From: Microbulbifer sp. HZ11
Lineage (GTDB): Bacteria; Pseudomonadota; Gammaproteobacteria; Pseudomonadales; Cellvibrionaceae
Assembly (NCBI RefSeq): GCF_000708675.1
Contig: NZ_JELR01000001.1
Location: 1,550,001-1,614,000, forward strand
DNA length: 64,000 nt
Reading direction: 5' to 3'
Positions 24 through 38,619 of the stretch are shown one piece after another (the stretch's first letter is position 1; each line of letters begins with the position of its first letter). A model generated the notes under the pieces. That model had not been told where the DNA came from and did not search any database. It saw only the letters and a program-made list of their open reading frames with translations. The translations under genes were made by a program, and so were the position numbers.

Positions 24-3000
24 TCAGCTCTGGACCAATACCACAACCTCGTCTTCCGCCTTCGACACAAGAGTCTCCTGGAGCAATTGTTCCAATGGCC
101 GAGGCCTGCCAATATGGTATCCCTGCACCAGATCGACACCGATGGCCTGCAGCTTTTCGACCGTCGCCTGATCCTCCACAAATTCAGCGATTGTCTGCGC
201 CTTCAGCCGGTGCGCCACCTGGTTGATAGATTCGACAATCATCAGATCGACAAAATTGGAATCCACCTGCCGCACAAAACTACCGTCGATTTTGATGTAG
301 TCGATGGCAAAGCTTTTCAGGTAATTGAATGAACTCAGTCCATTGCCGAAATCATCCAGGGCGACGGTACAACCCATTTCCCGCAAGTCCGCTACAAACT
401 GACTGGCACTCTCCATCTGATTGATCATTGCGGTTTCGGTAATTTCCATTCCGAGGTGCTGCGGCGGAATCGCCGACTCTTCCAGCAAGTGAAAAAACTG
501 TTGCTGAAACAAGCTGTCACCGAGCGCGTCGGCGGAGAGGTTCAGCGCAAGTTTCAGTCCACTGGCCGCAACGGCTGCACCCTGGGTCTGAAACAGTTCC
601 CGCACAATCCAGCTGTCAATCTGCTGCATCAGACCATAGCGCTCGGCAGCCGGAATAAACGCTCCGGGAAGAATCAGAGTGCCGTCTGTATCCAGCATTC
701 GCACGAGTACTTCGTAGTGATGGATCCGGGAGGTATCCCCGGCGCCGGCAATCGGCTGCGCGTAAAGTTGAAAGCTGCCCTCATCCAATGCGGCACGAAT
801 ACGCGAGGCCATGTGGATTTCCCGGTGCTGTTCCGCCGCCGCACTCCGGTCCGCCTCGTACAGCATCACCACACCGCGGCCGGCGTGCTTGGCAGAGTAA
901 CAGGCAACATCTGCCTGGCTCATCAAGTCGGCTACCTGGCTGTTACTGTGGGAAATTTCCGTGACACCCACACTCGCGCCCACATCGAAAATCCGGCCGC
1001 TCCATGGGAATCGCAGGGCAATAATTTTCCGTACCAGCTGCTCGCAGCGTGCCAACCCCTGCGTTTTATCGCAGTCACGCAGTAAAACCCCAAATTCGTC
1101 GCCACCCAGGCGGGCCACACAATCGGACTCCCGCAAGTGCCCGCGCAAAAAGCGCGCGACATTCTTAAGCAGCGCATCGCCCGCCTGATGCCCCGCGCTG
1201 TCATTGATTACCTTGAAGCGGTCCAGGTCCATATACGCCAGTACATGCACACGCTCGGTATTGCGTACGGTACTCACCGCCTCCAATAATTCACGCCGGA
1301 AAGCTTCGCGGTTGGGCAGATGTGTAAGATGATCGTGACTCGCTTTGTAGCGAAGCTGCTGGATCAGCTGGCGGGTTTCGGTAATGTCCTGACACACAAG
1401 TACCGCACCGAGTACCAAACCATCACTGGTCCGCAGTGGCGATGCTGAACACTTTACGTCATAACAGTCGCCCCCACGGTGATGCAGTACCGTGCCCTCA
1501 GGGGACATCACCGGAAGGTTCATATTGAGACAGTCTTGTGCCGGGCTGGCCACCAGGGCTCCGTCGCGCCCTGTGGACAAGCGCACCACTTCACGGACGT
1601 CGTGGCCGCTCACTTCCGCCAGCTTCCAGCCGGTCAGCTGTTCGGCCACCGGGTTCATAAAGGTAATTCGCTGGCGCTCGTCTGTGGCGATAACCGCATC
1701 GGCAATGGCGGTAAGGGTCACCTGTAGGTGCTCTTTTTCTTTTTCCAGAGACTCGGCCATCTGCTTGTTTTCGGTGATATCGCGCAACACGCCAATCAGC
1801 CGCAATGGATACCCACCATCCGCCGATTCCATCACATGTGCCAGCTCATGTACCCAGCGCCACTGCCCAGAGTCGGTTTCTACACGATACTGGCAATCTA
1901 TATCGGGGGCGCCACCTTCAATGTGCGCTTTCTGCGCCTCGAGTAGGCGCGAACGGTCAACGTCCGCCACCCGCGCGACCCAGTCGTTGCGACTGGCGAG
2001 CTTGCGTGCATCAATACCCATCCCACTGCTGAGCCACTCCGAAAAAAAAGTTTTTCCAGTAACCAGATCCCAGTCATAAACCACCTGACCAGTCACCGAT
2101 AAAGAAAACTTCCAGCGCTCTTCGGCACGCGCCAACTGTTCTTCGCTACGCTTGCGCCAGTCGACATCTTCAATCTGCACCACCGCATACAACGGCTCGT
2201 TGCGAGAACCCCGGGCAAGCGAGCATGACCAGTGCCCCCATACCCGCTCACCATTTTTGCGAACGAATTGCCATTCCGCATCCTGCACATAGCCGAATTC
2301 AAAATCCTGCGGCGGGCGCTCATAGGTTGGCATCCCGTGGCTTGCGCCAGCCTTGACCGTAGGCAGTACAACCACCTCCCCCACTCGCAAACCGCGCAGT
2401 TCGACCTCGCTAAAGCCGATAAACCGGCAAAAGCTCGCATTTGCCTGAAGTATACGATTGTCCAGTGTGACCAGGAGCATACCTATACGGGAGGACGCCA
2501 TCGCGGCGCGAAAACTGCTTTCCACTTCCACTATCCGCGTACTGCGCTTGCGCTCGACCCGCGAGACCACCGCCATAATGTACGCGGGGAAGATAGCGGC
2601 ATACAGAGGAAGGAAGTCCAGCGCGGTAGTGAGCTTTTGCAATTCTTCTGGCAGTACGGAGAGGGCATTGGTGAATAGCGCAAGCTGTGCGACAACGGCT
2701 ACAAATACCAGCAACAGTGTTTGCATCAGATCCAGGCGCGACGCTGCCCAGATCAATGGCAGGACGATAAAGACAAACGGATGTGGAACCGTAAATAAAA
2801 TACCAATTATTCCGGCAAGCGCCAGTACGGACACCAGCAGCAGGTGGGGGATCGCCCGCGCGGACAGTGATTCGCAGCCGGCACCCAAAGTACACAGATA
2901 GACCAGTGGAAAAAAAATACTTATCCCGACGACATCCGCCAGATACCAGACCACAAAAACATCAACAGGTGGCAGCCCGGCAAACACCATCGCCACCAGA

Positions 3001-3500
3001 GCACCAAATCCAGCACCGAAAAATGTCGGAATCAACGCACCAAAGCAGATGAACCGCAGCCAGCGCCCTGCGCCGTCGAAAAAGTCGCCGGCGGGGCAAA
3101 AGAATCGCAACATGGTGGCCGAAACACTGGCCTCGACAACACCGGCCAGTGAATACAGTGTCGCATTGACCAGCGCCACCTCCCCTGCCACCGCAGCACA
3201 CAGAGAACCGGTATAGGAGGCGAGCAGCAATACCGGCCACGAGCGAAACGCATGCCGGTAAAGGATGGCGATAGTGTATGCGTCCGCGAGCCAGATGGTG
3301 GCAATTCCGTCGCTGACATCGAGAAACTGCTTGCACAGAAAGGCGAGTACAAAGGTGGCAACAGCCAGCAACAACACACCCGATGCGCTCGCCACCGCCT
3401 GTTCGACGTGGGTTGACTGCAAACTCGCAGGAGCCTCTAACCCACGAAGTTTTGCGCTACCTTGATCTGCGATTCCCGTATCGGGCGCTGACTCGTTCAA
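24..3500 (-). CDS. Membrane-bound MASE1-PAS-GGDEF-EAL cyclic-di-GMP signalling protein
   Basis: A 1158-residue protein predicted to make and/or degrade cyclic di-GMP. About eight hydrophobic segments at residues 40-315 resemble a MASE1 sensor. Three PAS/PAC regions follow at about 330-450, 460-580 and 595-715. The GGDEF domain (about 720-890) has an intact GGDEF motif at 799-803 and an RESD inhibitory-site motif at 790-793, five residues upstream. The C-terminal EAL domain (about 900-1140) has EVL at 930-932 in place of EAL, a DDFG motif at 1049-1052, KIDGSF, and AEFVE where EGVE is usual. Both catalytic domains therefore look potentially active, although the EAL and EGVE variants could weaken hydrolysis. 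The gene lies just downstream of a sensor kinase on the same strand, about 100 bp away, so they may be co-transcribed. Its input signal cannot be read from the sequence. Confidence 0.93.
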   Translation of the reverse strand: MNESAPDTGIADQGSAKLRGLEAPASLQSTHVEQAVASASGVLLLAVATFVLAFLCKQFLDVSDGIATIWLADAYTIAILYRHAFRSWPVLLLASYTGSLCAAVAGEVALVNATLYSLAGVVEASVSATMLRFFCPAGDFFDGAGRWLRFICFGALIPTFFGAGFGALVAMVFAGLPPVDVFVVWYLADVVGISIFFPLVYLCTLGAGCESLSARAIPHLLLVSVLALAGIIGILFTVPHPFVFIVLPLIWAASRLDLMQTLLLVFVAVVAQLALFTNALSVLPEELQKLTTALDFLPLYAAIFPAYIMAVVSRVERKRSTRIVEVESSFRAAMASSRIGMLLVTLDNRILQANASFCRFIGFSEVELRGLRVGEVVVLPTVKAGASHGMPTYERPPQDFEFGYVQDAEWQFVRKNGERVWGHWSCSLARGSRNEPLYAVVQIEDVDWRKRSEEQLARAEERWKFSLSVTGQVVYDWDLVTGKTFFSEWLSSGMGIDARKLASRNDWVARVADVDRSRLLEAQKAHIEGGAPDIDCQYRVETDSGQWRWVHELAHVMESADGGYPLRLIGVLRDITENKQMAESLEKEKEHLQVTLTAIADAVIATDERQRITFMNPVAEQLTGWKLAEVSGHDVREVVRLSTGRDGALVASPAQDCLNMNLPVMSPEGTVLHHRGGDCYDVKCSASPLRTSDGLVLGAVLVCQDITETRQLIQQLRYKASHDHLTHLPNREAFRRELLEAVSTVRNTERVHVLAYMDLDRFKVINDSAGHQAGDALLKNVARFLRGHLRESDCVARLGGDEFGVLLRDCDKTQGLARCEQLVRKIIALRFPWSGRIFDVGASVGVTEISHSNSQVADLMSQADVACYSAKHAGRGVVMLYEADRSAAAEQHREIHMASRIRAALDEGSFQLYAQPIAGAGDTSRIHHYEVLVRMLDTDGTLILPGAFIPAAERYGLMQQIDSWIVRELFQTQGAAVAASGLKLALNLSADALGDSLFQQQFFHLLEESAIPPQHLGMEITETAMINQMESASQFVADLREMGCTVALDDFGNGLSSFNYLKSFAIDYIKIDGSFVRQVDSNFVDLMIVESINQVAHRLKAQTIAEFVEDQATVEKLQAIGVDLVQGYHIGRPRPLEQLLQETLVSKAEDEVVVLVQS

Positions 3501-3604: not shown

Positions 3605-5617
3605 TTACTGCCCGCCCTCGATCTCATCGATATGACCAAGCGACAACCCATAACGCAATCCCTCAGCGAGACCGGCGAGGTCGTAATTCGCCGGCACGCA
3701 GAAATCCACATCCTCACTGCACTGATCGAGAATACCCACAAGTGGAATATGTGCAGTACTTGGGTCACTCCGCAATATACTGGCGAAATCCCGAAGTGAC
3801 ACACCAGGTAACTCACTGTCGATCAAGATGACGTCTGGGTGCGCAGTTCGCGCGGCAAAAATCCCCCGCATTGCATCGTTGCAGGTCTGTACTTCGGCCT
3901 GCTGTACAGATGCCAACACCACTTTCATACGACTGGCATTGGCGGTTCGCCCGGTAATATAAAGCAGGCGGCAAGCCGGAAGCATCTGAGCGTAGTCGGG
4001 ACGCGCCGCCATTTTCAGCACTTCATTTGGGGCGTCGTTCATCATGAATTCAATCCAGAATACCGAGCCCTGCCCCTCCTCGCTATCAAATCCGATGCGC
4101 CCCCCCATGGCCTCGGTCAGTTGCTTGGCAATCGCCAACCCGACACCGGTGCCTTCGATCTTTCCCAGCTCCGCCCCCAGGCGGTTGAACGGTTCGAATA
4201 CCTGCGGCTGCTTGGCCGCGGCAATGCCACTGCCGGTATCCAGAACACTCAGCCTCAACCACCCCTCAGCCTGGGGGGCCAGAGAAATGACCACGCGACC
4301 GCCCTCGCGATTGTATTTGATCGCGTTACCCACAAGATTGAGAACCACCTGTTTGAATCGCACGGGGTCAGCGAGGACAAAAGCACGCTCCCAACCAAGA
4401 GGCTCGAAGGTCAGGCTGACCTTGCGGGTATCTGCGAGAGGCTCCAGTAACTGCCGGCAGTCTGCTACCAGGTTAGCGGGCTGAACGGGCTCAATGGAGG
4501 GCGCGAGACGCTGACTGTCGATTCGCGCGAGATCCATCACATCTCCGACCAGGTGCAGAAGGTGTTGCCCGGCCTTGCGGATTTCCGCAAGACGCAGCCG
4601 CTGATTTGGGTTCACACTTTGATCGAGTTCGACCATCTGACTGTATCCGAGGATCGCATTGAGCGGGGTGCGCAACTCGTGCCCGAGGCTCGAAATCAGC
4701 TCCGTGCGGTCGCGGTTCTGCTGCTTTAGTCGCAACAACTCCTCTTTCGCACGCATCTGTTTTTTCTTGGTGGTGGTGATATCTTCAAGGGTCCCGAGTA
4801 CCCGGATGGGGCGCCCGGCACTGTCAGTCTGCACGTTACCTCGAGCGCGCACCCAGAGGATGTTGCCATCGCGATGTTTCAGCCGGAATGCCACGTCCAG
4901 CGGCAACCGCTCACGGACGTTGTCCTCCATCGCCTGTTTAACATCGGGGTAATCATCCGGGAACATGTGGGTTTTCCAGCGAGCCAGTGCCGCCCTGACA
5001 TCCGGGTCGCTATGTCCACGGGCATATCCCAGCATGCTCCAACAGGTGTTATCCAGCACTATTTCATCGACCCGCAGATCCCACTCCCACAGGCCGTCAC
5101 CAATGGCGCTGAGCGTCTGCTGTAAACGCTCCCCGGAAAAGTTGGACAGGGGGCGCAACGAAAGCGGTTCGGTGTAATCAGTACACCCACCCAGAAAGAA
5201 TCGCTGCCCTGCGGGATCGTTGAACGCCCGAGCCCAGACCCGTAACCACACCGGTTGACCGTCGCGGGCATAAGCGCGCATCGTGGTATCGGCAAAGGTT
5301 CCCTGCTGACACAAACGATTGCGCAGCGCCAGTAAACCGTCGCGATCATCGGTATGAACCAGGTCCAGGTCACCACTCCATATACCGGATAGCGCCAATT
5401 CCGGATCCTGGTGCAATTGCAGCCAGATACTTCCGGTGGCGCGCTGCTCTCCGGTCTCAGGATGCCACTCCCAGATTCCCTGATTTGCGCTCAACAGCAG
5501 GCTATGCAGGTACTGCACCTGATTCAGTGCCTGCTCGGGCGACAGGCCTTCCAACTCGCCGGGGCTGGCAAGGTGAAGACCAAATGGACTGGAGTGTATG
5601 GGGGTCGTCTTCGACAC
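3605..5617 (-). CDS. PAS-domain hybrid histidine kinase with degenerate receiver
   Basis: A 670-residue, apparently cytoplasmic sensor kinase with no clear membrane segment. Two PAS/PAC regions (about 35-150 and 160-285) are followed by a HisKA domain whose phospho-acceptor is His313 in SLGHELRTPLN. The HATPase_c domain has an N box NLVGNAIKYN (about 427-436), a G1 box DTGSGIA and a later GTGVGLA box. The last ~125 residues have a receiver-like layout with a possible acceptor Asp in VILIDSELPG (about 600). The usual N-terminal acidic pair is replaced by ITGRT, and the conserved C-terminal Lys of receivers is not visible, so this is probably a pseudo-receiver. No partner response regulator is adjacent. 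A sigma-54 promoter and a terminator-bounded small transcript lie immediately upstream on the same strand. Confidence 0.9.
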   Translation of the reverse strand: MSKTTPIHSSPFGLHLASPGELEGLSPEQALNQVQYLHSLLLSANQGIWEWHPETGEQRATGSIWLQLHQDPELALSGIWSGDLDLVHTDDRDGLLALRNRLCQQGTFADTTMRAYARDGQPVWLRVWARAFNDPAGQRFFLGGCTDYTEPLSLRPLSNFSGERLQQTLSAIGDGLWEWDLRVDEIVLDNTCWSMLGYARGHSDPDVRAALARWKTHMFPDDYPDVKQAMEDNVRERLPLDVAFRLKHRDGNILWVRARGNVQTDSAGRPIRVLGTLEDITTTKKKQMRAKEELLRLKQQNRDRTELISSLGHELRTPLNAILGYSQMVELDQSVNPNQRLRLAEIRKAGQHLLHLVGDVMDLARIDSQRLAPSIEPVQPANLVADCRQLLEPLADTRKVSLTFEPLGWERAFVLADPVRFKQVVLNLVGNAIKYNREGGRVVISLAPQAEGWLRLSVLDTGSGIAAAKQPQVFEPFNRLGAELGKIEGTGVGLAIAKQLTEAMGGRIGFDSEEGQGSVFWIEFMMNDAPNEVLKMAARPDYAQMLPACRLLYITGRTANASRMKVVLASVQQAEVQTCNDAMRGIFAARTAHPDVILIDSELPGVSLRDFASILRSDPSTAHIPLVGILDQCSEDVDFCVPANYDLAGLAEGLRYGLSLGHIDEIEGGQ

Positions 5618-5696: not shown

Positions 5697-5722
5697 AAAA
5701 AAAGGCCCCGCAATGCGGGGCC
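5697..5722 (-). terminator. Intrinsic terminator of the candidate small RNA
   Basis: On the minus strand an 8-bp G/C stem GGCCCCGC/GCGGGGCC with a 3-nt loop is followed by seven T residues. The plus strand has no T-run after the stem, so it is directional. It lies upstream of the kinase start at 5617 and cannot be that gene's own terminator. Confidence 0.85.
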
Positions 5723-5820
5723 CAAAATAGCGATGATGAGAGAAAACGGGAAGTCACGCATTATTACAATTGCCATAACCCGTGATGGATTCCCGGAGCG
5801 TGGACCTTGCGGCCCACGGT
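5697..5820 (-). ncRNA. Candidate sigma-54-dependent small RNA (~122 nt)
   Basis: No protein gene fits here, yet the minus strand carries a complete transcription unit. A -24/-12 promoter at 5845-5829 predicts a start near 5818-5820, and an intrinsic terminator ends transcription near 5697. The predicted RNA opens with an 8-bp hairpin (CGTGGGCC/GGTCCACG, one G-U pair) closed by a GCAA tetraloop of the GNRA class. A second possible stem pairs ACGGG with CCCGT, and the terminator stem-loop closes the RNA. I see no convincing ORF inside it. It lies between a divergently transcribed desaturase gene and the sensor kinase on its own strand. It could be a free sRNA, comparable in logic to the sigma-54-driven CrcZ class, or an attenuated leader of the kinase. 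No known RNA family was recognised. Confidence 0.6.
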
Positions 5821-5828
5821 AAATATGT

Positions 5829-5845
5829 TGCAACCGGTGTGCCAA
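5829..5845 (-). promoter_or_regulatory. Sigma-54 (-24/-12) promoter
   Basis: The minus strand reads TTGGCAC-ACCGG-TTGCA, nearly identical to the RpoN consensus. The GG (5843-5842) and GC (5831-5830) dinucleotides have the required spacing. Just upstream, at about 5855-5882, is an A/T-rich stretch bounded by AGAGT and ACTCT half-sites, which could bind an enhancer-binding protein. No known operator was recognised there. Confidence 0.75.
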
Positions 5846-6276
5846 CTTTTGAGAAAGAGTAAAAAAATATCTATTTCACTCTAAAACCGACCAGATAGAT
5901 CAAGATTTAGTCACATCGAAAACCATATAACGAAAAACCTGTTCTAAGAATGCGTTTATTAACGATAAATGACAGCGCTTGACCCATTATCGAACGCAAA
6001 ATCCCACCAACGCACCAAAATAACGCACTTAAGGACATATACGCACAATCCTGACTTTCTACCCATGGAAGACAAGCTAAAATGGAGTTTCGTCCAACCC
6101 ATCGCGGGGAAAATGAGAACCACGAGGCAAAAAACAGGTCTCATATCCACCAAATTACAGGACGTGCGCCCTCTAATAACGTGTTCCGAGACGGTATCTG
6201 GGGTAGCATTTCCCTTTCGGCCCGCGACTCTGCCGCAAGCGCCGAAATCGGCAGGCTTAAACAAGGTTGTAAATAT

Positions 6277-7419
6277 ATGAAAGCAGTTCCCGAAGCCCCC
6301 CGTATCTGGCTCACGACCGTACTGTTCGCCAGTACCGCGCTGGTCGCCGTGACCCTGGTACCGCTGTATGGCTTCCTGGTTGGTTATCACTGGTACCAGT
6401 GGCTGGCATTCGCCGTGCTGGGTGCCTTCTGCGGCTTTTCCATCACCGCGGGCTACCACCGCCTCTGGTCACACCGGACTTACGAAGCGCACTGGTCCCT
6501 GCGCCTGTTTTACGCGCTGTTTGGTGCCGCCGCGCTTCAGAACAGTGCACTCATCTGGTGTTCCGGTCACCGCCGCCATCACCGCCACTGTGACGACAAT
6601 GACCACGACCCCTATTCCGCCAATCGCGGTTTCTGGTTTTCTCATATCGGCTGGATGCTGCGGGATTACCCCAGTGGTGCCGTAGACTTCGACAACGCCA
6701 AGGACCTGCAACGCGACAAAATCGTTATGTGGCAGCACAACCACTATGTACCCATTACCGTTGCCATGAACGTCGGCGTGCCCCTGGCGCTCGGCCTGCT
6801 CACCGGCGATGTGCTGGGCATGTTGCTGCTGGCCGGCGTATTGCGCATTGTGGTGAACCACCACACCACCTTTTTTATCAACTCCCTTGCCCATATCTGG
6901 GGCCGCCGTCCGTATACCGATGAAAATACCGCCCGCGATAATGATCTGCTGGCATTTTTCACCTTCGGTGAGGGCTACCACAACTACCATCACATTTTTC
7001 AGACCGATTATCGCAACGGTATCCGCTGGTACCAGTGGGACCCCACCAAGTGGCTGATCAAGACCGCCAGCTGGCTGGGCCTGGCGCGCAACCTTAAAAC
7101 CGTGCCGGCAATGCGCATTCAAAGAGCAATGCTGACCATGCAGTTCAAGCGCGCAGAGAAAAAACTGGAAAACTCCAAGCACAAGGAAAGCTGGAAGCAG
7201 CTGCTGGAACGCGAAGCACAGGACTTTTCCGCCGCTCTCGCAGAGTGGAAGGAACTGCAACAGACTCGCTATGAGAGTGCCCGAGAGCGTCTCGTAGAAA
7301 AATGGGAAAACGCGACCATCCGTACCCGCGTCAAAGAGCTGGAGTACAGCCTGAAGATGCAGCGCAAACGCTTACAGATCATGATGGAGCAGTTCCACCT
7401 GGCTCCGGCCACGGTGTAA
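6277..7419 (+). CDS. Membrane fatty acyl (delta-9-type) desaturase with coiled-coil tail
   Basis: A 380-residue di-iron desaturase that would introduce a double bond into acyl chains, probably to adjust membrane fluidity. Hydrophobic segments carry the three histidine boxes of the acyl-CoA/stearoyl desaturase family: HRLWSH, HRRHH and HNYHH. The ATG at 6277 is preferred over in-frame starts upstream because the family homology begins just after it and AAGG lies about 10 bp upstream. The last ~110 residues, after the catalytic domain, are highly charged and heptad-like, rich in Lys/Glu/Arg, and predict a coiled coil that may mediate membrane-peripheral or partner contacts. A strong terminator follows. 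The 5' region holds the inverted repeat TTTAT-taacg-ATAAA near 5956-5970, a possible but unproven operator. Confidence 0.92.
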   Translation: MKAVPEAPRIWLTTVLFASTALVAVTLVPLYGFLVGYHWYQWLAFAVLGAFCGFSITAGYHRLWSHRTYEAHWSLRLFYALFGAAALQNSALIWCSGHRRHHRHCDDNDHDPYSANRGFWFSHIGWMLRDYPSGAVDFDNAKDLQRDKIVMWQHNHYVPITVAMNVGVPLALGLLTGDVLGMLLLAGVLRIVVNHHTTFFINSLAHIWGRRPYTDENTARDNDLLAFFTFGEGYHNYHHIFQTDYRNGIRWYQWDPTKWLIKTASWLGLARNLKTVPAMRIQRAMLTMQFKRAEKKLENSKHKESWKQLLEREAQDFSAALAEWKELQQTRYESARERLVEKWENATIRTRVKELEYSLKMQRKRLQIMMEQFHLAPATV

Positions 7420-8323: not shown

Positions 8324-11300
8324 ATGATCAGCTCAAAGCTCAGGCTCGGTCTGATGACCGCTGCCATGCTCACTGCGGGACACGGCTACGCCGCCGTCGA
8401 CTGCACGTCACTCCCGGTCTGGGAAGCCGCCACCGCCTACTCCGGGGGTGCGGAGGTCCAGCATAACGACAACGCCTACAAGGCAAACTGGTGGACTCAG
8501 AATCAGAACCCCGAACAGCACTCCGGCCAGTATCAGGAATGGAGCCTGCTGGGTGTCTGCGAAGATGGTGATCCCCCCCCGCTCGCACCGCCACAGGGAT
8601 CGATCACCGCGCCGACTGCCGGCTCTACCCACAACGAGAATGACAGCGTTGTCTTGTCCGCATCTGCATCCGACTCCGACGGCACCGTTACCTCCGTTGA
8701 ATTCTTTATCGATGGAGCACTGGTCGCCACCGACACCACCGCGCCCTGGCAAACTACCTGGACTGCGGTAGCCGGAGAGCCCACTCTCACCGCCCGCATC
8801 ACAGATAATGACAATCTCACCACCACCACCGCGCCGGTCACTTTTACCGTGGAAGAAGATGTCGTGGTCGGGCCGGTTGCTCCGGAAATCAGTATTACGG
8901 CACCCGCCAACGGCTCTACCCATACCACGGGTGACAGTGTGAATATCAGCGCCAGTGCCTCCGACAGCGACGGCAGCGTAACCCAGGTAGCCTTCTACGT
9001 TGACGGCAACCTGATCGGTACCGATTCCACCGCACCGTACACAGCTTCCTGGACCGCAACGCTCGGCAACCACACGATTTCCGCCGTCGCCTCCGATAAC
9101 GACGAGCTGGAAGCTTCCGCAGAGGTGCCGATTACCGTAGAAGATGAAGCGGTGGTGATCGGGGATCACCCCTGTCGCCCGGATGGGCTCTACACCACAC
9201 CCGGCACGGCACCCAATTACTGCGCCATTTATGACGCGGACGGGCGCGAAGATATGGGCGCGGACCACCCACGCCGCATCATTGGCTACTTCACCAGCTG
9301 GCGTAACGGCGCCAACGGGCAGCCGAGCTATCTGGTTAAAGACATTCCGTGGGGGAAAATCACCCACATCAATTACGCCTTCGCCCACGTAGGCAGCGAT
9401 TACTCCGTTTCGGTAGGCAATACCAGTGACCCCGGCAACCCCGCAACCGGAATGGAGTGGAATGGTGTCCCCGGTGCCGAAACCGACCCCGACTACCCCT
9501 ACAAGGGCCACTTCAATCAGCTGTCCAAATTCAAGGACCAGTATCCGGACGTGAAGACTCTGGTCTCCGTGGGTGGATGGGCAGAAACCGGTGGCCACTT
9601 CAATGAAAACGGCGACCGAGTGGCCGATGGCGGTTTCTACACCATGACCACCAACGCCGATGGCAGTATCAACCACCAGGGTATCGAGGCCTTCGCCAAC
9701 TCTTCTGTGGACTTTATTCGCCAGTACGGCTTCGATGGTGTCGACATCGACTACGAATATCCCACCAGCATGAACGATGCCGGCAACCCGCTGGACTTCG
9801 GCATATCCAACCCCATGCGCGGCGCCCTGATGGAGTCCTATGTGGAGCTGATGCGCGTTCTGCGAGAAAAACTGGACGAAGCCGGTGAGCAGGATGGCAC
9901 CCACTACATGCTGACCATCGCATCACCATCTTCCGGCTACCTGCTACGCGGCATGGAGACCATGCAGATCACCCAGTACCTGGATTACGTCAATATCATG
10001 ACCTATGACCTGCACGGCGCCTGGAATGAATATGTCGGTCACAACTCCGCGCTGTTCGACAACGGCAATGATCCGGAGCTGGCAGCCGCTAGTGTCTACA
10101 GCACCTCCCAGTACGGCGGTATCGGCTACCTGAATATCGACTGGGCGGTGAAGTATTTCCGCGGTTCGATGCCCGCAGGCCGTATCAATATCGGCATCCC
10201 CTACTACACCCGCGGCTGGCAGGGTGTTTCCGGCGGCACCAATGGCCTCGGCGGCTCGGCACCACTACCGGCTCAGTCAGAATGCCCTGAGGGTACTGGT
10301 GGCGCTTCCGATTGCGGGAACGGCGCCGTCGGTATCGACAACATGTGGCACGACAAAAACAGTATCGGTGAAGAGATGGGCGCGGGCTCCAACCCCATGT
10401 GGCATGCCAAGAACCTGGAAAACGGCATCCTCGGCAGCTATCTCACCGATTACGGCCTGAACCCGGCCAACGATCCCGAAGATGCCCTGGTAGGCACCTA
10501 CGAGCGTAACTACGACAGCGTCTCTGAAGCCCCCTGGCTGTGGAATGCTCAGAAGAGCGTCTTTATCTCCACCGAAGACGAAGAGTCCATGGACGCCAAG
10601 GTGCAATACGTTATCGACGAGGGCGTCGGCGGCATCATGTTCTGGGAGCTGGCCGGCGACTACGACTGGGATGCGTCCAAAGGTGAGTACTTTATGGGTG
10701 ACACACTCACTACCCTGGCCTACGACAAGTTCGCCAACGCCAGTGAGTACCGCCACCTGCGTACCGATCGCGTGGTGCCGGATGAAGCACTGGATATCGG
10801 CATCGAGATCACGGATTTCAAGTTAGGCGATCAGAACTACCCATTGAATCCGAAGTTGTTTATTACCAACAACACCGGTGGCGTACTGCCCGGCGGTACT
10901 GTGTTCGAGTTTGACATGCCCACCTCCACATCCAACATCATCACCGACCAGAGCGGTGCCGGATTGGAAGTCATTGAGGATGGGGCCAACGCCGGTGGGG
11001 GTAACGTGGGCGGCCTGGAAAATGAGTTCCACCGTGTGCGCTTCAGCCTTCCAGAGTGGCAGGACCTGGCGGATGGTGAATCCTGGGATATGACTCTGAA
11101 TTATTACCTGCCGGTCTCCGGCCCTCAGGCCTACACCGCAACGGTCAACGGAACCACCTACGCACTGGCCTTCGAATACCCCGATCTGCCCATTGCCGAG
11201 CTCGGCAGCGGTGGCGGTTCCTCCGGTGGCAGTTCTGGGGGCGGTAGCGGTGAGAGCTGTAGCGATGCGGGTGTGGATACCAGTGGCCTGGTCACCTACC

Positions 11301-11437
11301 CCGAGTGGCCACGGGGTAATCACGCAGCGAGTGGTGACCAGATCATCCACAACAACAGTGTATTCGAGGCCAAGTGGTGGACTCAGTCCGAACCAGGCAC
11401 TGCGGACGGCAGCTGGAGCTTCGTCTGCAATCTCTGA
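8324..11437 (+). CDS. Secreted multidomain GH18 chitinase
   Basis: A 1037-residue exported chitinase that would hydrolyse beta-1,4-GlcNAc linkages of chitin outside the cell. Domains in order: a Sec-type signal peptide (about 1-23); a CBM5/12-type chitin-binding module with AYKANWWTQNQ-like aromatics (about 25-79); two related Ig-like modules (about 90-176 and 187-273); and a GH18 catalytic barrel (about 315-800) with the signature DGVDIDYEYP, in which Glu478 is the predicted acid/base. A further beta-rich region (about 820-955), a Gly/Ser linker (about 961-977) and a C-terminal CBM5/12 module (about 980-1037) with AKWWTQ follow. A plausible ribosome site AAGGTG lies about 9 bp before the ATG. 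A terminator follows, then a NagX-like gene, which suggests a small chitin/GlcNAc-use locus. Confidence 0.95.
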   Translation: MISSKLRLGLMTAAMLTAGHGYAAVDCTSLPVWEAATAYSGGAEVQHNDNAYKANWWTQNQNPEQHSGQYQEWSLLGVCEDGDPPPLAPPQGSITAPTAGSTHNENDSVVLSASASDSDGTVTSVEFFIDGALVATDTTAPWQTTWTAVAGEPTLTARITDNDNLTTTTAPVTFTVEEDVVVGPVAPEISITAPANGSTHTTGDSVNISASASDSDGSVTQVAFYVDGNLIGTDSTAPYTASWTATLGNHTISAVASDNDELEASAEVPITVEDEAVVIGDHPCRPDGLYTTPGTAPNYCAIYDADGREDMGADHPRRIIGYFTSWRNGANGQPSYLVKDIPWGKITHINYAFAHVGSDYSVSVGNTSDPGNPATGMEWNGVPGAETDPDYPYKGHFNQLSKFKDQYPDVKTLVSVGGWAETGGHFNENGDRVADGGFYTMTTNADGSINHQGIEAFANSSVDFIRQYGFDGVDIDYEYPTSMNDAGNPLDFGISNPMRGALMESYVELMRVLREKLDEAGEQDGTHYMLTIASPSSGYLLRGMETMQITQYLDYVNIMTYDLHGAWNEYVGHNSALFDNGNDPELAAASVYSTSQYGGIGYLNIDWAVKYFRGSMPAGRINIGIPYYTRGWQGVSGGTNGLGGSAPLPAQSECPEGTGGASDCGNGAVGIDNMWHDKNSIGEEMGAGSNPMWHAKNLENGILGSYLTDYGLNPANDPEDALVGTYERNYDSVSEAPWLWNAQKSVFISTEDEESMDAKVQYVIDEGVGGIMFWELAGDYDWDASKGEYFMGDTLTTLAYDKFANASEYRHLRTDRVVPDEALDIGIEITDFKLGDQNYPLNPKLFITNNTGGVLPGGTVFEFDMPTSTSNIITDQSGAGLEVIEDGANAGGGNVGGLENEFHRVRFSLPEWQDLADGESWDMTLNYYLPVSGPQAYTATVNGTTYALAFEYPDLPIAELGSGGGSSGGSSGGGSGESCSDAGVDTSGLVTYPEWPRGNHAASGDQIIHNNSVFEAKWWTQSEPGTADGSWSFVCNL

Positions 11438-38239: not shown

Positions 38240-38619
<380 letters not shown>

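Follow-up and report, generated by a model that had tools for sequence, protein, structure and literature searches.

To our knowledge, small RNAs (sRNAs) activated by NtrC are known from few bacteria. In Pseudomonas aeruginosa, NrsZ is a structured, intergenic sigma-54 sRNA that is induced by NtrB/C; according to the section of PMC9308961 that deals with it, the RNA is at least 226 nt long, is processed, adjoins ntrC and carries the motif ACAGGCAG. NfiR of Pseudomonas stutzeri A1501 has two upstream NtrC sites of the form TGC-N11-GCA and its expression is abolished in an ntrC mutant; the passage of PMC6606865 that describes it gives a 54-nt product, which starts at a distance of 29 bp from its presumed sigma-54 site and is only partly RpoN dependent. 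CrcZ, a sigma-54/CbrB sRNA, measures 407 nt (same section of PMC9308961). PrrF (RF00444) is an iron sRNA of the Pseudomonadales, for which the background is drawn from a part of PMC4211561.

The gene described here lies in a stretch of 64,000 nt of Microbulbifer sp. HZ11 (NZ_JELR01000001.1, positions 1,550,001-1,614,000), the whole of which is referred to as the window. The predicted RNA has a sigma-54 promoter in common with CrcZ, and resembles NrsZ in being structured, intergenic and putatively under NtrC control; its sequence and neighbours differ from those of NrsZ, and the motif ACAGGCAG occurs in none of 40 aligned RNAs of the genus. Unlike in NfiR, the -24/-12 element matches the consensus exactly and the predicted start falls at a hairpin. 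With PrrF it shares a 5' hairpin, a second stem, a UCUC-rich single strand, a terminator and a similar core, but it has a sigma-54/NtrC-type promoter, no Fur box and no GCUAAUCACGG, and scores below the Rfam cut-off. It apparently represents a separate, undescribed family, distinct from NrsZ and NfiR. In our judgement the gene quite probably encodes a base-pairing sRNA that is activated by NtrC, depends on sigma-54 and is made when nitrogen is limiting. Its control region resembles the usual switch for nitrogen starvation, so that Microbulbifer probably uses the predicted RNA to adjust several messages when nitrogen is short.

The locus had been called unrecognised in an earlier note made from the window alone, and this description stands: Rfam gives no match there at the gathering threshold, and the literature searched on Microbulbifer small RNAs and NtrC yielded no description of the RNA. 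Strain HZ11 has been credited with 14 sRNAs, which are counted but not individually specified in the relevant passage of PMC11678492. What emerges is a well-bounded, genus-wide family that no Rfam entry matches above cut-off, and a candidate post-transcriptional arm of the nitrogen response in a marine polysaccharide-degrading genus.

Anatomy and conservation of the RNA gene

The gene consists of the following elements:

5829-5844, minus strand: sigma-54 promoter, -24/-12 elements TGGCACACCGGTTGCA, exact match to the consensus
5697-5818, minus strand: small RNA of about 122 nt, with the 5' end placed by the -12 spacing rule
5799-5818, minus strand: 5' hairpin of 8 bp, GCAA loop in the window, compensatory changes among relatives
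5747-5795, minus strand: second stem-loop, with the nearly invariant outer pairs CGGGAA...TTCCCG and the inner helix TCAC...GTGA
5729-5746, minus strand: single-stranded core TTTTCTCTCATCATCGCT, near-invariant in the alignment, presumed antisense seed
5697-5723, minus strand: intrinsic terminator with GC stem and U tract, 9-bp stem at 5723-5703 followed by a T run

The promoter, which the earlier note had read as near-perfect, is the sole exact match to TGGCACRN4TTGCW in the 64-kb window, where about 0.03 would be expected by arithmetic. Counting 12 nt from the -12 element, the spacing rule for sigma-54 promoters given in a passage of PMC6606865, predicts a +1 at about 5818, which coincides with the start of the first hairpin. 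The proposed terminator was recovered as well; every one of the 40 aligned sequences, that of the window among them, preserves its stem. It is the only terminator-like site between 5400 and 6400; taken alone it is not beyond chance, since 1.2 such sites are expected in shuffles of this region. The fold of 5820-5694 has an energy of -53.6 kcal/mol (z = -5.0), and none of 200 shuffles was as good.

A query of 251 bases around the site was compared by BLAST with 58 genomes, among them 36 of other Microbulbifer and 21 from outside the genus. Matches with E <= 7.3e-9 were obtained in 35 of the 36, and in 13 of these 35 the aligned stretch begins at about the -24 element and stops at the terminator (query 48-52 to 202-209); the 21 genomes outside the genus gave chance-level matches only (best E 0.018). 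With a covariance model (E <= 1e-6) the RNA was found in 47 of 48 genomes of the genus and in all 46 good ones, the sole miss being an 80%-complete assembly (G007). A scan of named genomes with the core pattern returned 30 stretches, 25 of them from Microbulbifer, and the five others have no sigma-54 site ahead of the match.

Within the promoter, TGGCA and TGC are the same in each of the 43 distinct loci examined; these loci do not amount to a census of the 47 genomes with the RNA, and they were gathered by the core together with loose promoter patterns, which favours invariance. Five core loci were skipped for absence of a promoter; none was from Microbulbifer, and no Microbulbifer core locus was dropped in this way. 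The promoter is also present in 13 of 13 further loci, several of which repeat earlier genomes. Conservation in close relatives, on which the earlier note had staked its proposal beforehand, is thus found for the promoter and, through compensatory change, for the first hairpin. In one genome the unit of desaturase and sRNA is apparently duplicated (L319, G004:C66:32000-38500); the second RNA copy, with a decayed terminator, is apparently decaying and lies beside what seems to be a fragmented copy of the desaturase gene.

Enhancer boxes shared with glnK operons

Two boxes lie upstream of the promoter:

6011-6027, no strand assigned: enhancer box A, an NtrC-type dyad, TGC-N11-GCG on the minus strand and CGCACCAAAATAACGCA on the plus strand
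5981-5987, no strand assigned: position of enhancer box B, ATGGGTC on the minus strand, one base off TTGGGTC

In the window, box A scores 11 of 14 against TGCACYANNNTGGTGCA. Among the 43 distinct loci of the genus, box A (TGC...TTTTGGTGC) is found in 38, against 63 of 4294 background windows, and box B (TTGGTTC or a variant of it) in 35, against 37 of 4294, a count from which the degenerate box B of our window was excluded. Both boxes occur in 32 of the 43 loci; in 29 of these 32 they are 31 bp apart, which corresponds to about three helical turns, with box B nearer the promoter. At glnA of E. coli, two strong NtrC sites lie about three turns apart. The mean best score against the NtrC consensus was 10.8, compared with 9.0 in shuffles (41 loci). 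As a dyad TGC-N11-GCR, box A fits the form of NtrC sites, TGC and GCA with an 11-nt spacing, given in a passage of PMC6606865. The two most divergent members (L036 in G006 and L318 in G426) have neither box within 200 bp, and box A as defined was not found in L009, L032 and L033.

The box motifs were drawn from the same 43 loci, so that only the comparison with glnK is independent. The glnK gene was found in all seven Microbulbifer genomes searched, and at the sigma-54-like promoters of the glnK operons box A is present in six of seven and box B in five of seven, in reversed order relative to the RNA loci and at a spacing of about 60 bp. In these loci (L210-L216) glnK-amtB-glnK seems to form an operon, with a porin-like first gene behind the sigma-54 promoter (all names except glnK were assigned by eye).

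Because these boxes stand upstream of the RNA as well as at the glnK operons, NtrC is the activator that we propose. Most likely, phosphorylated NtrC would occupy the two boxes, some 60-185 bp upstream, and loop to the promoter, where sigma-54 RNA polymerase would transcribe a free-standing, trans-acting sRNA. We infer that the transcript would depend on both NtrC and RpoN and, the activator most likely being phosphorylated NtrC, that it would be made under nitrogen limitation. Control by Fur was also considered and was rejected: over 350 bp upstream in 41 loci, the mean best score against the Fur consensus (taken from general knowledge) was 10.6, no better than the 10.8 in shuffles.

Predicted structure, core and candidate messages

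The structure was evaluated on an alignment of 40 distinct sequences, the window included, from which G426 and the decayed second copy of G004 were left out. In these sequences 96.6% of the cells pair, compared with 33-47% when the partners are slid, a comparison in which a consensus-derived structure favours the unslid version. Cells with a double change number 24 versus 6.9 +/- 2.0 in shuffles, none of 500 being as high, and five pairs have changes on both sides, a number also reached by 35 of 500 shuffles; kinship among the genomes inflates such covariation counts. In the first hairpin the pairing is maintained through changes on both sides. The 8-bp hairpin with a GNRA cap that the earlier note described is present in the window, with a GCAA loop and one G-U pair, but a GNRA loop is found in just 21 of the 40 sequences. 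Helix 3 is paired in 99.6% of its cells and helix 4 in 88.1%, and the terminator stem, paired in 100%, has one pair with a compensatory change. In three genomes (L026, L027 and L028) stem 2 contains an extra GC-rich, hairpin-like insert of about 25 nt.

Between stem 2 and the terminator the strand TTTCTCTCATCATCGCT is identical in 39 of the 40 RNAs, and TTTCTCTCATCA is present in all 40 of these sequences, which were gathered partly by this core. The core is unpaired in the predicted structure. A near-invariant single-stranded TTTCTCTCATCATCGCT is as expected of an antisense seed, and the RNA has sequence features of an Hfq-type antisense sRNA, namely a U-rich single strand, the U tract of the terminator and an unpaired, near-invariant seed. 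The product of about 122 nt would fold as a 5' hairpin followed by a second stem and a U-tract terminator, leaving free a pyrimidine-rich strand of about 18 nt. Most likely this strand would pair with several mRNAs, probably with the help of Hfq, and the pairing would alter translation or stability of the targets. The near-invariant seed of 17-18 nt makes the targets experimentally tractable.

No convincing target came from searches with exact seed words, from partly read match lists or from a few gene sets, a scope too narrow to argue that the RNA has no targets. The pattern TGATGAGAG-N3-12-ATG occurs at 44 places in 12 genomes, versus 10 for the reversed pattern, an excess of the seed complement before ATG that may reflect codon usage. 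In the 30 of these 44 places that were examined no gene recurs in more than two of the 12 genomes; ddl-like and ectoine-synthase-like genes recur in two each, and the ectoine-synthase-like site apparently lies within the coding end of the preceding gene. By the look of their translations, other places are presumably starts of a TonB receptor, a tryptophan halogenase and two acyl-CoA synthetases, none of them recurring among the places examined. Similarly, GATGATGAGA occurs at 55 places in four genomes, versus 13 for the reversed control; most of the 30 places examined are inside reading frames, one (L264) is at the start of a TonB-receptor-like gene, and no gene recurs in more than two genomes among these 30. 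TonB receptor starts as a set (29 usable of 30 loci, from 135 matches) showed no enrichment: the mean duplex energy was -11.7, while shuffled cores averaged -11.5 and 33 of 100 of them did equally well. The starts of the kinase, desaturase, EAL, chitinase and glnK genes gave pairing p values of 0.19-0.77. In a pattern search of the strain's own genome that allowed two mismatches, the one exact site among the matches listed is the RNA itself.

Relation to PrrF, the neighbouring genes and other readings

The RNA might be a descendant of the iron-sparing PrrF in which a Fur-repressed promoter was exchanged for one under NtrC and sigma-54, and which, responding to nitrogen instead, still pairs with mRNAs of iron-containing proteins; we regard this as possible, though doubtful. 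Such an ancestry is compatible with an NtrC-activated sRNA and adds an origin to it. PrrF is the top Rfam match and runs over the full length, but it scores 32.4 bits against a gathering cut-off of 90, which none of 40 genomes of the genus exceeds. At E <= 1 the best match of the PrrF model falls on the RNA in 36 of these 40 genomes, the other four being without a match; in a stricter order-wide search none of the ten genomes sampled from the genus had a PrrF match at E <= 0.01. In permissive Rfam searches PrrF appeared alongside several weak matches, many of which rest on the terminator. E-values close to that of PrrF (0.0023) are also obtained with other families that end in a terminator (ncS54, 0.0026).

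Conversely, a model built from Microbulbifer sequences only (R1) gave 33 matches in 26 PrrF loci (of 50), of which 32 are on PrrF genes, in 22 of the 26 loci, and two matches in 39 control loci; the PrrF loci are hairpin-terminator RNAs and the controls are not. The layout alone could explain part of the signal. Unguided, the R1 search placed six of its listed matches outside the genus on PrrF genes (G356, G303, G073, G396, G272 and G138), although PrrF accounts for only a minority of the matches that it lists there.

At the level of the core, the sequences align as TCTCTCATCA-(A/TC)-GCT-(A/G)-AT, with p values from dinucleotide shuffles of 0.001-0.03 for four of five PrrF cores; against the core of the sister-genus genome G092 the values are 0.10-0.27. 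Two further observations favour this descent. The canonical core GGCTAA(N)CACGGTT is not over-represented in Microbulbifer, where a search for this exact pattern, which would miss a diverged PrrF, found it in 7 of 48 genomes and a reversed control in 13 of 48. Of eight sister-genus genomes, three contain a match to PrrF, with Fur-like boxes seen by eye. These three PrrF genes lack CTCATCA. In a test of the PrrF core TCTCYTCATCARGCTAATCACGG, CTCATCA was found in all 40 RNAs of Microbulbifer and GCTAATCACGG, a strongly conserved element of PrrF, in none. No Fur box was found upstream of the RNA in 41 loci, and the genes beside 20 PrrF loci include none like the kinase, desaturase and EAL genes in the window.

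Descent from PrrF is thus a tentative proposal, and one of ancestry, not of membership in PrrF. The fuller scenario, in which a PrrF-type, iron-sparing sRNA moved from Fur to NtrC/sigma-54 control in the ancestor of Microbulbifer and nitrogen starvation in place of iron starvation now triggers a seed-based shut-down of a conserved set of mRNAs, we consider unlikely. If true, the ancestry would allow one to ask how the input signal of an sRNA regulon is replaced in the course of evolution, and the swap would be a natural promoter exchange that rewired an old sRNA regulon.

Across 390 genomes, PrrF was found above cut-off in 17 and with matches at E <= 0.01 in 61. Four loci contain tandem PrrF-like sRNAs far below the Rfam cut-off (L171 in G292, L173 in G138, L174 in G396 and L180 in G073), with up to five copies in the array of G292 and, where displayed in these arrays, Fur-like boxes recognised by eye. 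Another locus (L177 in G128) combines a match to the PrrF model and a Fur-like box with an altered core, TCTCTCATCAGGAGCTGAATG, and looks midway between PrrF and the Microbulbifer RNA.

The flanking genes are:

3605-5617, minus strand: PAS sensor histidine kinase (HisKA, HATPase_c by Pfam), downstream of the RNA
6280-7419, plus strand: divergent fatty acid desaturase (PF00487, matched on the longer frame from 6082); start at 6280 assumed

The earlier note had found the place of the RNA between these two genes unexplained, and the two turn out to differ. Wherever an examined locus of the genus has sequence beyond the RNA, the kinase comes next (L020 and L045 end at a contig edge). No desaturase was found within the sequence examined around the RNAs of G006 and G426, the most divergent pair, where the kinase is kept, and for this reason the desaturase is probably an incidental neighbour. 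No NCBIfam family reaches its cut-off for the kinase among the best 25 of 83 matches. Upstream of kinase homologues from seven sister genera (L184-L194), which are homologues by 28-41% identity and not established orthologues, there is neither such an RNA nor a sigma-54 site with at most one mismatch, and CTCATCA occurs only without the rest of the core.

The constant kinase invites a reading of the RNA as its 5' leader, in which transcription would start at the sigma-54 promoter and a regulated terminator would gate the kinase. The kinase lies on the same strand after the RNA in all examined loci with sequence, both divergent ones included, its association is tighter than that of the desaturase, and a distance of a few hundred bases makes a role in cis conceivable. 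Against a gate, the terminator stem is paired in every cell, and although upstream pairing with a terminator arm is possible in every sequence, its strength (-8 to -17 kcal/mol) and shape vary and no shared partner is evident. The distance from terminator to kinase is variable, and the predicted fold leaves the near-invariant core unpaired. We therefore judge a leader quite unlikely, and a free-standing, base-pairing sRNA under NtrC the better account.

The RNA could also act by titrating an RNA-binding protein instead of by base pairing, either Hfq/Crc, in the manner of CrcZ, or RsmA/CsrA. The motif AANAANAA is the Hfq/Crc motif of CrcZ, CrcY and CrcX, and several copies would be expected. 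In the 40 RNAs it is found in none, and ANGGA in one (both motifs as generally known); the RNA has one unique core, not repeats. CrcZ is a sigma-54 RNA of the titrating kind, as described in the section of PMC9308961 cited above. The analogy with CrcZ drawn in the earlier note holds as far as both are sigma-54 sRNAs, but it fails for AANAANAA, and the enhancer boxes point to NtrC. Titration is in our view very unlikely.

That the transcript encodes a small protein (MAIVIMRDFPFSLIIAILGPALRGLF... in the window) is extremely improbable, and this reading was rejected because the frame is not conserved among the 40 sequences. The earlier note's description of a stretch with no ORF should be qualified, in that one ATG frame of the window is open to the RNA end, and an RDFPFSLIIA stretch stands in an open frame in many of the 40 sequences. 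This frame, however, meets no stop on its way across the terminator; in relatives it either stops or has a start that is missing, altered or displaced (e.g. L007, L014, L029 and L036), and the core shows no synonymous changes.

Elsewhere in the window, the only Rfam match at the gathering threshold is a class A RNase P RNA (38241-38618, minus strand, 324 bits). Downstream of the kinase lies a gene for a MASE1-PAS-GGDEF-EAL protein (24-3500, minus strand), and a GH18/ChiC chitinase with chitin-binding modules is encoded at 8324-11437 on the plus strand.
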